DNA of 64,000 nucleotides from Leuctra nigra (taxonomy: Eukaryota > Arthropoda > Insecta > Plecoptera > Leuctridae). The notes under the pieces are model-generated. The model was not told the DNA's origin and searched no databases. It was given only the letters and a program-made list of their open reading frames with translations. The position numbers and the translations under genes are program-made. Below are positions 35,701-38,772 of the stretch, piece after piece (positions within the stretch are counted from its first letter, which is position 1; each line of letters starts with the position of its first letter). The stretch is taken from positions 4,774,001 through 4,838,000 of the forward strand of contig OW203770.1 of the NCBI GenBank assembly GCA_934045905.1, given 5' to 3'.

Positions 35701-38624
35701 ACTGTATGAACTCTCACCAGATGGAGCCACAGTCAGTTGTTCTGCTAGGCCGAGAAAGACTTCATTGCGCGCTCACCTTGCAATGTTGTCTTTCTCGGCC
35801 TAACAGAACAAATGACGGTGTCTCGGTCCTTAGAGAGTTCAAGCATAGGAAAAACGAACTGTAGTCAACTAAAATGTGAGATTTTACTTTTAATTACAAA
35901 TTGGTACTTATTTAATCCTTTATCGAGTATGCCTGTATCTCTTACGTTTTGGCATTCAATATAATCATTAAAAATATATATATATAAAATTAATTTTAAA
36001 AATTTGTTTTCTAGTTGAAAACCCTATATTCTTATCATACAAAAATTTGCTTCCTAACTCATCCCATAAAGGATATAGAATTTTTACCTCTACCTATCTA
36101 CAAATTAACTCACTCGTTAAAGGCCTTGGTCAGGTTGCTTCAGCTTCTACATAATAATGTGACAAGAATGATTTTATCAAAAATTAAAAAATTAAATATA
36201 TCCGACAATCACAACCCTCACAATGTGACAATTAAACTCTTGCCGCAACCCGCCACACACTGAACGCAAGCCCGCAACGCATGGAGCAGTGACGTCAGTG
36301 AGAGGGACCGCCCTGCAAGCCAGCCCGCGGCCGGCCGCGCGCACTTACGCTGAAGCAACCTACTAACTCTATGCCGACACATGATAAGTCAAATCGCAAA
36401 TAAGTCAAGTGTCCCTGATTTTACCGTGGTTTACCAAGAAATTTTTCCCCATAATTATTCCAAACTCGTCCACTTGGCGGTGGTTTCTTAGATACCTACA
36501 ATCTGATTTCCAGACAGATTTCGGCGATGCATTCAGTAATTCGCACATTTGCAAACGGAAGTAATTCGCACTTTAATCTATTTGCAATGTCATAATCAGT
36601 CTCTGTAAAGTGGATTGAACAAACTAGTGATGATTAAGTAGGAGTATCTAAAGTTGTTATGAAGCCACTGTTTATATCTGTCTGCTGATGACTGACTGGG
36701 AAATCGTTGAAAAGAGAGTTTATTTCCATCCGCGCCTACACATTTTAGAGTATTGTTACATTTAAATATACACAGCATTCTTCAACCATTGTTACGGTAT
36801 TTCACACGCAGTAAAAAATTTAAACTAAAACTTACATAGTCACTTCTATTAATTCACTGTTATAGTCACTAATGTAAACGCTTTTATAATCACTACCTAT
36901 TTCAATTGTCTATAATAATGAAATAGCCACTAGTTATTTAATAAAAGCACTACAAATACTAAGTTTATTTACTAGCTACTGTCCTGCCTTCTTCGCATAA
37001 AATAATAACAACTGAAATACACCCGTATTCATGAAACCACAAAAATCAACTGACGACAGTCAACGCGCTGCATCCTGCTGTCTTGACGCCAAGCGATCCC
37101 TCGCACTGACGTCAGTGCCCCATCCGTGACCGGAAACAAAGAAGGGGTGAAATTCTGCTCATGGGCCGAAAACAACATTTTTTTGACGCCTCAGCTCTTC
37201 CGACACTAACTACCATCCATTGAAACACATACCTACCTTAGGAAGTCGTACTGGGGCTTTAAAGGGTTTTAATTGGATATTTTAGAATTTTCACAAATCT
37301 CTTAATTGTAATGTCATGTAGCACCTACTTGTCAGGGTGAATTGCCGATAAAACAAAAATCAGAACAATTACGTTGATGCTGTTCGGAGCGAAAGGAACG
37401 TCCCATTCGTCAAGAGTGGCATCCAAAACGAAAGCCTCGCATCTGTAATAAAGTGCAGGGTGCTGTGAATGTGAACTGACAGTGGTGGAAAAGTTTCACT
37501 TTAAAAATAGTACAATAACTTTAATAAGCTGTTTCATAAGTTAGTTGAAACTAGAATAAAGGATTTAAAAAAAAAAAAATGTGGAGTTCCCTCAATTTAG
37601 TTTTACAATAATGAAGAACTTAGAACTTCCTCAGTCTGTATTAATTACCTACTAGATATTATTTTTAATGGAGGTTTATGACTGACTGATTTTCATACGT
37701 CGATTTTCAGAACACCATGCTGATGGGAATCTGATTAACATAAGGTCTGTTCGTTCGCTCTACACTAGTGACACCGGAATTACACACTATGCCGAGTGTG
37801 GAAAGTGTCTACACCTTTTACACTTTTTGTCGGTCGAACAGTTCAAGTGTAGCCAGTGCAGAGCGAACGAACAGACCTATAATAAAGTTCGTATAAGTAG
37901 GTACAAAATATGGGTTCTGAAATCATACCTTTCCGTGTCATATACTGGGTTCTCCTTCAATATCTGGATTGCAGTAGATGAGAAATCACAGCAGTATACA
38001 AACAAGTTGGGATCAACAGAATATTGAAGTATTGGGAACACAGTGTTGCCAACACCACATCCTATTTCAAATATTTTCCGTTTCTCTGCAACAGTCGTTT
38101 CCTTGGCTGCTGAATCTTCACTGGGTTCCCCCTGTACAGATGTGTCCGGTGCAAGTTCAGGGAACTCGGTGAAAAGCCAGTGTCTGTCTTTAAAGAATCT
38201 ATTTTGGTGAATGTCGTAAAAAGAGTTCCAATATTTGTCCGCTTCACTTTCGAACTTTGCTTGATCGTCTTCGCTCGCATATGTTGATGAATTTTCTTCA
38301 ACTTTTTTCTTTGCTTGTTCTTCAAGCTCAGCATCCCATTCCACATTGTCCCTGAAAGCATAGTTAAACCCATTACGGGATGGTAAACAAACAGGTGGTA
38401 AATTACGAAGAAGACTCGCAAATTTCAATCATAATATGTTATAAATTAAAGGTGAGGCACTAGGCAGGCTTAACATACCACGCATTGAAATCAAAAACTC
38501 TCACTGGATCAGTGAGGAATCTTGAACCGTATTGAGGTTTTTTGCGATATCTTGTGTGGCAAAATAAATTTTTAAAGGCTAAAGCCGTCCATCGAAGTTT
38601 AAGAAGGCGTAAATTCATAATCAT
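32605..38624 (-). CDS. Same METTL gene, predicted mitochondrial isoform (exons 1b-2-3-4-5)
   Basis: Replacing exon 1a by exon 1b (38624-38479) gives 1008 bases, 335 residues and a stop. The first 30 residues contain about nine basic residues (counting His), several Leu and Phe, and no Asp or Glu; they begin MIMNLRLLKLRW. This is the composition of a mitochondrial presequence. The next segment KPQYGSRFLTDPVRVFDFNAW is homologous to RPQFGNRLLKETDNVFQHNAW of exon 1a. In vertebrates the mitochondrial enzyme METTL8 and the cytosolic METTL2 are separate paralogs; here one locus appears able to make both. The isoform is inferred from sequence, without transcript evidence. Confidence 0.75.
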
Positions 38625-38772
38625 TGTGGACAATTTGTCATAGAAAAAAGAATATTATTGTAAAATCCTACCAAGCGTTGTGTTGGAACACATTGTCAGT
38701 TTCTTTCAGTAATCTGTTTCCGAATTGAGGTCTGGCACAGTGCTCCTCTAAATTGTCCACGGGCGCAGCCAT
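32605..38772 (-). CDS. METTL2/METTL8-type tRNA 3-methylcytidine methyltransferase (cytosolic isoform, exons 1a-2-3-4-5)
   Basis: Exons 38772-38672, 38351-37929, 37442-37329, 34540-34368 and 32756-32605 join to 963 bases, 320 residues and a stop. Proteins of this family methylate cytidine 32 of tRNAs using S-adenosylmethionine. Visible in order: FGNRLL..NAW then DNVEWD; KYWNSFYDIHQNRFFKDRHW followed by LFTEFPEL, the family signature; SAM motif I FEIGCGVGNTVFPIL; motif II VYCCDFSSTAIQIL; VIVLIFVLSAIHPDKM; LRPGGLVVFRDYGQYD; FYARGDGTRVFFFTQ; and the C-terminal LVDRRLQVNRGK..MYRVWIQAKY. Length and motif order fit METTL2 closely. An AATAAA lies downstream (32574-32579, - strand). A second first exon (1b) gives a different N-terminus. 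Codons are less GC-ending than in the phosphatase. Confidence 0.95.
32815..33318. mobile_element. TA-flanked MITE (CACTCG family) containing a Harbinger MITE
   Basis: Ends CACTTGGCCAAACAAAACTT and AAGTTTTGTTTGGCCGAGTG, flanked by TA. The element at 32904-33187 is nested in it. It lies in the last METTL intron, 58 bases from the exon 5 acceptor. Confidence 0.7.
32904..33187. mobile_element. PIF/Harbinger MITE, 284 bp, TSD TAA
   Basis: The termini CGCTGGGTTCCCATACTT and AAGTATGGGAACCCAGC are inverted. TAA flanks lie at 32901-32903 and 33188-33190. Arms pair along almost the whole length through TTCGCTTCCGGTTCGCTTCG and ATCGTCCATGTTTACATTCG. Confidence 0.88.
33319..34367. other. METTL intron; remnant hAT-type end at about 34010-34152
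   Basis: Around 34010-34150 there are iterated GTTCCTAGGAACT-type words ending TTCCTACCCAACACT, which looks like one end of a hAT MITE. I found no matching left end. A small palindrome CCCCAAATATTTGGGG lies at 34330-34345. Nothing else recognised. Confidence 0.45.
34368..34540 (-). CDS. METTL exon 4
   Basis: Acceptor taccatcag before 34540, donor CAAG|gtaagc after 34368. It encodes MQQVLVNIHRYLRPGG, then LVVFRDYGQYDLSQLRFKKG and FYARGDGTRVFFFTQ. The intron upstream of it (34541-37328) is the second largest of the gene. Confidence 0.95.
35736..35815. repeat. Short palindromic element
   Basis: GTTCTGCTAGGCCGAGAAAG and its inverted counterpart CTTTCTCGGCCTAACAGAAC surround a roughly 30-base centre. 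Probable small MITE in the large METTL intron. Confidence 0.55.
36129..36365. repeat. GC-rich segment with inverted ends
   Basis: GGTTGCTTCAGC (36133-36144) and GCTGAAGCAACC (36349-36360) are inverted. The right half is unusually GC-rich (CCCGCGGCCGGCCGCGCGC). Probably a small TIR element; no coding frame. Confidence 0.4.
37329..37442 (-). CDS. METTL exon 3
   Basis: Acceptor tattacag before 37442, donor ACAA|gtaggt after 37329. It encodes CEAFVLDATLDEWDVPFAPN and then VIVLIFVLSAIHPDK. Confidence 0.93.
37743..37878. mobile_element. TIR MITE, 136 bp
   Basis: Ends AGGTCTGTTCGTTCGCTCT and AGAGCGAACGAACAGACCT, flanked by ATA on both sides. A 3-bp duplication suggests a PIF/Harbinger relative. 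It lies between METTL exons 2 and 3. Confidence 0.7.
37929..38351 (-). CDS. METTL exon 2 (family signature and SAM motifs I-II)
   Basis: Acceptor gctttcag before 38351, donor AAG|gtatga after 37929. The first base completes the Trp codon begun by either first exon. It includes RHWLFTEFPEL and EIGCGVGNTVFPIL. Confidence 0.95.
38479..38624 (-). CDS. METTL exon 1b (predicted mitochondrial targeting N-terminus)
   Basis: It starts at ATG 38624 (context CCACAATG), with a second in-frame ATG at 38618. The donor is TG|gtatgt at 38478, the same phase as exon 1a. No good acceptor precedes it, so it looks like an alternative start exon and not an internal cassette. Only 47 bases separate it from exon 1a. 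Confidence 0.78.
38672..38772 (-). CDS. METTL exon 1a (cytosolic N-terminus)
   Basis: The start context is CCAAGATGG. It encodes MAAPVDNLEEHCARPQFGNR and ends HNA plus TG of a Trp codon before gtagga. Reading through the donor gives HNAW and then an immediate TAG, so an unspliced 1a is a closed 34-codon frame 44 bases before the exon 1b ATG. Confidence 0.88.

Follow-up and report, generated by a model that had tools for sequence, protein, structure and literature searches.

In vertebrates METTL2 serves cytosolic tRNAs in 3-methylcytidine (m3C) formation and METTL8, a separate gene, serves mitochondrial tRNAs. METTL8 has been described as having arrived with the vertebrates, and it then has to be explained how methylation of C32 would be achieved in the mitochondria of invertebrates. 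The question is raised here by a METTL2 gene on the minus strand of a 64,000-nucleotide stretch of Leuctra nigra DNA (contig OW203770.1; this whole stretch is the window, and positions are given in its coordinates), in which two homologous N-terminal coding segments, 1a and 1b, precede a single enzyme body. The best overall explanation, which we consider probable, is a single METTL2/8 gene having one first exon with two 5' splice sites, from which isoform A would serve the cytosol and isoform B the mitochondria.

Two N-terminal segments and their 5' splice sites

The coding part of exon 1a (38672-38772, minus strand, as are all features of the gene) encodes MAAPVDNLEEHCARPQFGNRLLKETDNVFQHNA followed by the first two bases of a split Trp codon (TG|G); it is of type A and predicted to be cytosolic. 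Exon 1b (38479-38624) encodes MIMNLRLLKLRWTALAFKNLFCHTRYRKKPQYGSRFLTDPVRVFDFNA followed by the same split codon and is of type B, a predicted mitochondrial presequence plus the duplicated segment. The proximal 5' splice site, that of 1a, has its GT at 38670-38671 (TTG|GTAGGA), and the distal site, that of 1b, at 38477-38478 (GTG|GTATGT). Both segments leave TG, the G of exon 2 (37929-38351) completes the Trp codon in the same phase, and the acceptor at 38351, which follows TTTCAG, is common to the two. Re-reading of the sequence bore out an earlier note on this DNA as to the coordinates, frames and splice sites of 1a and 1b, the shared acceptor and the split Trp codon at both first segments. 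Its claim that the segments are homologous also held: they are identical at 10 of 21 residues, and when the 1b segment was shuffled 100,000 times no shuffle reached their BLOSUM62 score, whether the last four residues were included or dropped.

The earlier note had taken 1a and 1b for two alternative first exons. The two segments stand, but the favoured reading is that they form a single uninterrupted exon that has two 5' splice sites. Past 1a and up to the 1b ATG there is just one AG, at 38669, which lies within the 1a donor sequence and which the earlier note had missed; 1b therefore cannot be spliced to an upstream exon without carrying 1a. The 47 nucleotides between 1a and the 1b ATG (38625-38671) would be intron in isoform A and a contiguous exon part, 5' of 1b, in isoform B. 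Scored with a donor matrix, the proximal site reached 0.97 and the distal site 3.25, the latter being the highest score between 38772 and 38353.

Within 1a lies a further ATG (38693), missed in the earlier note, which is in the frame of 1b, +1 to that of A. It encodes MCSNTTLGRILQ-stop (38655-38693), a remnant of a type B start that crosses the 1a 5' splice site. An in-frame TAA (38657-38655) separates this remnant start from 1b, whose frame has no further stop from 38654 on, across the donor. As the note had described, unspliced 1a carries a closed frame of 34 codons, which ends W-TAG at 38668. The 1b N-terminus is indeed free of acidic residues, but its first 30 residues hold 8 K/R and 0 D/E rather than "about nine" basic residues, a count that needs His; upstream of the segment there are 7 K/R and 0 D/E.

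One enzyme body with two N-termini

By sequence the window gene is of the METTL2/8 (Trm140) type, a predicted tRNA m3C32 methyltransferase. Beyond exon 2 the gene continues with exon 3 (37329-37442), exon 4 (34368-34540) and exon 5 (32605-32756, stop codon included). Every intron is GT-AG, and the five-exon METTL2 product has 320 residues via 1a and 335 via 1b. Its body contains a seven-beta-strand methyltransferase domain by Pfam (PF08242 at 60.8 bits against a cut-off of 30, with PF13649, PF13489 and PF08241 also above cut-off); the methyltransferase matches in NCBIfam were all below cut-off. Where the best 120 of 5616 matches bear a functional name, it is mostly Mettl2, tRNA N(3)-methylcytidine methyltransferase or methyltransferase-like. 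Human METTL6 structures match the product at 2.4e-65, their alignments beginning only at residue 63-64 or later, and the METTL2-type N-terminal segment (GxRxL..VFxxNAWDNVEW) is present; orthology is to Mettl2, not METTL6. In a METTL2 tree the window gene falls among insects, the order of which the tree does not resolve.

We searched the whole 536-Mb genome in six frames with the 1b isoform as query and expectation values up to 10. Seven places were returned, five being exons of the window gene and two belonging to one gene on C5 (23.10 Mb), which reads as METTL6 (FFKDRHWTTREFEEL) and is without the METTL2-type N-terminal segment. This was the check for another METTL2/8 gene that the earlier note had proposed; only METTL6 turned up, and no second METTL2/8 gene with a presequence of its own was found.

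Relatives were the best 120 of 5616 and the best 120 of 3555 matches, the second search having scored the 7987 candidates that shared most words. Their N-termini are of two types: type A is short and acidic with RPQFGNR..VFxHNAW, and type B is basic with RxRKKP..GxR.L..FNAW. Among the 188 listed proteins (window excluded) there are 121 of type A and 60 of type B, counts that leave out five fused models, the ambiguous P0184 and P0121, which lacks an anchor. The 60 of type B comprise three from amphioxus, 50 with insect names and seven unnamed. Conservation of 1b-like N-termini was thus confirmed, type B occurring among these best matches, to which our judgement is confined, in Lepidoptera, Diptera, Coleoptera, Hymenoptera and Orthoptera (orders assigned from species names); the Drosophila melanogaster protein (P0168) is type B. 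Upstream of the segment, all 60 listed type B proteins carry a net positive charge, vs 2 of the 121 of type A. In 58 type B rows this region spans 17-56 residues, all net positive, with a median of one acidic residue (range 0-5) and of seven basic residues. A database search with only residues 1-64 of a type B protein returned the query itself and nothing else. AlphaFold models of the Anticarsia isoforms, with mean predicted local distance difference test scores of 79.6 and 82.8 and values under 50 at residues 1-26 (B) and 1-14 (A), say little on the segment.

The two types are old and their bodies are shared. Each of 176 database segments (119 A and 57 B), compared over the 21 residues, had its nearest neighbour within its own type, close relatives being among the neighbours. 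In a quick-method tree of the bodies from exon 2 onward, built on 185 rows after P0003, P0121 and three short rows had been set aside, A and B are interleaved; across 120 A and 58 B rows the type changes 25 times. For four species, proteins of both types come from contigs equal in length, which we took as the same contig. The A and B bodies are identical in Anticarsia (290/290 residues) and Papilio machaon (289/289); those of Plodia and Cephus match without a difference over 100 and 86 residues, respectively, and over the last 60, and differ by internal gaps. For the relatives, these comparisons imply that A and B are isoforms of one gene and that the segment duplication is older than these orders. 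A recent, lineage-specific exon duplication was rejected, since the segments cluster by type and the A and B bodies interleave. The proposal that an exon duplication would let one gene serve both compartments is supported, with an ancient duplication and not a local one.

Two N-termini on one body from one locus are also what databases show: insect Mettl2 (Drosophila Mettl2, the UniRef entry P0168) is orthologous to the window gene, several insects have proteins named isoform X1 to X4, and the A and B N-termini recur among listed isoforms, e.g. X1 (B) and X2 (A) of Papilio machaon, entries known by their names and sequences only. The isoforms are therefore already annotated, and what is new here is the single exon with two 5' splice sites and the +1-frame overlap, a start that the window gene has lost. 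Among the open-access papers listed in literature searches, no title or abstract opening concerned insect Mettl2 isoforms.

Some relatives depart from the two types. In P0025, which stands beside thrips in the tree, a type A protein has a basic 35-residue extension ahead of an internal Met (MADEE); alternative starts, in place of exon 1b, may give dual targeting there. The five fused models (P0028, P0089, P0091, P0110 and P0123, from Colias, three Anopheles and Sarcophaga) join segment A to the TRxRKKP part of B, segment A ending in NA-C or, in P0123, NA-W; they reflect artefacts of gene prediction or, alternatively, a third isoform that lacks a presequence. The Mettl2 model of Lutzomyia longipalpis (P0003; 567 residues, 794 bits) is possibly a doubled methyltransferase model.

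A proposed overlapping +1 frame at the end of exon 1a

The type B protein of Anopheles bellator (P0090) begins MCSSTMLGRILF, which is comparable to the window remnant MCSNTTLGRILQ. From this resemblance came the idea that the B start is the end of exon 1a read in the +1 frame across the 5' splice site (GGT-A..). We examined 16 A/B pairs, of which one involved a fused model without the motif and 15 were testable (four on equal contigs, one from the same species, five from the same genus and five looser). From the first Met to the Gly, the B start could be encoded jointly with the A end in the +1 frame in 14 of the 15 pairs, and in the +2 frame in none. At most 1 in 2000 shuffles matched the +1 joint coding, and other ends of the same N-termini gave no more than two residues. 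Positions free of the pattern by which the Gly was placed fit the prediction as well: N or S in 36 of 37 rows, S, L or F in 37 of 37, and, after the Gly, a residue that a codon starting with A can encode in 36 of 37, against background frequencies of 0.13, 0.24 and 0.56. The motif occurs in 45 of the 57 listed B rows that are not amphioxus and in none of the 121 A rows; 28 of the 45 have no Met between motif and segment. One of the three amphioxus rows fits a loose form. In many insects, then, the B start appears to lie inside exon 1a in the +1 frame, as judged by codon compatibility from protein sequences alone.

The isoforms could arise as follows. The first exon would be one block of two tandem, anciently duplicated N-terminal segments, each with its own 5' splice site. 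Use of the proximal site would give isoform A, with an acidic N-terminus, in the cytosol, its substrates by homology probably tRNA-Thr and tRNA-Arg. If the proximal site were skipped and the distal one used, isoform B would result, with a basic presequence and the second version of the segment. In many insects B would start in exon 1a in the +1 frame and read through the proximal splice site, a short stretch thus coding twice; in the window species the stop would shut that frame and 1b would begin at 38624. B could be reached by leaky scanning, by reinitiation or through transcripts that begin beyond the A start codon. Reinitiation, which the earlier note had offered as a means of isoform choice, is possible in the window species because the frame is closed at 38655 and the 1b start lies 43 nucleotides past the stop of the A open reading frame. 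It does not fit insects in which the B start lies inside that reading frame, where leaky scanning or a transcript start downstream of AUG-A would be needed instead.

Candidate mitochondrial substrate, rival explanations and possible ancestry

The mitochondrial genome (contig C144, 17,593 bases; COX1 open with TGA as Trp) encodes 22 canonical tRNAs, four extra ARAGORN predictions having been set aside as spurious. Six have C32 and four have U34G35; only tRNA-Thr has both, with the loop CUUGUAA. The determinants of METTL8 in mitochondrial tRNA-Thr are reported to be C32 and U34G35U36t6A37A38 (PMC8752778). The Leuctra nigra tRNA-Thr reads C32-U33-U34-G35-U36-A37-A38, the complete METTL8 motif in one of the 22, and would be the likely substrate of isoform B. 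Such a tRNA is a necessary condition and not strong evidence. From this tRNA and the composition of the B N-terminus we infer that B is mitochondrial. 1b is presumed to be used in Leuctra nigra. Rfam matches on the mitochondrial contig were rRNA, some tRNAs and weak sub-threshold microRNA matches. The nuclear genome holds a full-length COX1 copy (C13:51651552-51652892) with TGA codons and no other stops, and eleven shorter pieces also lie outside C144.

Several findings weigh against the explanation by one exon, two splice sites and two compartments. The hydrophobic moment fails to separate the types (means of 0.39 for 28 B and 0.45 for 89 A), and that of window 1b is 0.29 over 18 residues and 0.52 over the best 11. 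Mitochondrial tRNA-Ser(UGA), the second human METTL8 substrate, has U32 here, so that one of the two is available. Window 1a is clearly type A (mean identity 15.2 of 21, vs 8.6 to B), and 1b is only slightly nearer B (mean 12.1 of 21, best 15) than A (11.0, best 14), being classed as B mainly through RxRKKP and its basic N-terminus. In the window a stop shuts off the ancestral B start, and 1b would have to start at 38624. As to the overlap, the joint-coding test was partly guided, since the pattern used to place the Gly end came from those B rows themselves; the exceptional pair, Musca B with Lucilia A (different genera), has 5 of 11 residues encodable, and 12 of the 57 non-amphioxus B rows are without the motif.

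An alternative to which we give somewhat less than an even chance, and which is compatible with most of the preferred explanation, keeps the same exon and splice sites but has B transcripts start from a promoter of their own between the A and B start codons. AUG-A would then be absent from the B mRNA and leaky scanning unneeded, which would suit the strong context of AUG-A (AAG ATG G) and the downstream position of the B start. A TCT-initiator-like TCTTTTT at 38651 is a weak lead in the same direction, and loose initiator matches occur inside 1a at 38735 and 38728; being short, such matches will sometimes arise by chance, and a motif scan gave no TATA or TCAGT-type initiator between 39000 and 38600. 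B might also be real but not mitochondrial, its basic N-terminus directing it to the nucleus or nucleolus or altering tRNA binding. Human METTL8 without its presequence is reported to gather in nucleoli (PMC8752778), and hydrophobic moment does not tell A and B apart; we nonetheless regard this as unlikely, given the uniformly positive charge upstream of the segment in the 58 B rows and given a mitochondrial tRNA that bears the METTL8 motif in full, for which the genome search turned up no other METTL2/8 enzyme.

Decay of 1b in the window species, where it would no longer be used, seems more doubtful still. The TAA between the remnant start and 1b and the scant preference of the 1b segment for B over A would agree with it, but the frame beyond that stop is open through the donor, RxRKKP and the invariant segment residues are kept, the N-terminus from 38624 is basic and acid-free, and the distal donor is the top-scoring one by the donor matrix. 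We rejected as highly improbable the idea that type B belongs to a separate insect METTL8-like gene whose first exon was captured next to METTL2. The A and B segments do each cluster with their own kind, but the bodies are identical in two pairs and share long identical runs in two more, the types interleave in the body tree, and the six-frame search of the genome found no METTL8 gene separate from METTL2.

The preferred explanation, of one gene with two 5' splice sites, has partial parallels. Human METTL8 has a presequence on a METTL2-related enzyme, as proposed for B, and its loop motif is present in the mitochondrial tRNA-Thr of Leuctra nigra (PMC8752778, PMC8980813 and PMC11093979); its non-mitochondrial isoforms are described there as lacking the presequence, whereas in the window gene a second homologous segment would replace it. 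TRIT1, Mod5 and GRO-1 are each one gene for cytosolic and mitochondrial tRNAs, TRIT1 with a single start and Mod5 and GRO-1 with alternative translation starts (PMC7200024); the window gene would use alternative 5' splice sites and two overlapping frames. The XL-alpha-s/Alex dual-coding exons are likewise a stretch read in two frames from one locus (PMC2329644), but in insect METTL2 both frames would encode the start of a single enzyme, one for each compartment, and their overlap would run across a 5' splice site.

Three amphioxus proteins (P0137, P0139 and P0158) have a type-B-like N-terminus, CHTRTRKRPPFGDRYLTDPSRVFEHNSW or close variants, which suggests that type B is older than the insect and amphioxus lineages. 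The +1-frame overlap is not evident in these rows and may be an insect feature. PMC7204298 describes METTL8 as a paralogue of an ancestral METTL2. Tentatively, the paired first segments may predate the protostome-deuterostome split, the ancestral METTL2 having served both compartments and vertebrate METTL8 being its split-off mitochondrial half. Were the overall explanation true, one gene with two interchangeable homologous N-terminal segments would be the answer for invertebrate mitochondria and offer a testable origin of METTL8, and the m3C of the two compartments would be genetically separable in flies by removal of one splice site. The locus would also exemplify, on a small scale, double coding that runs across a splice donor and has apparently been retained through several insect orders.

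Repeats lie in and around the gene. Intron 2 holds a 136-nucleotide element (37743-37878) resembling a miniature inverted-repeat transposable element, with 37-nucleotide inverted termini that are 84% complementary. A 136-bp unit occurs in tandem at 30368-31345 (7.7 copies), and a 21-bp array at 42533-42662 (6.2 copies, 100% matches) leaves several frames open on both strands.

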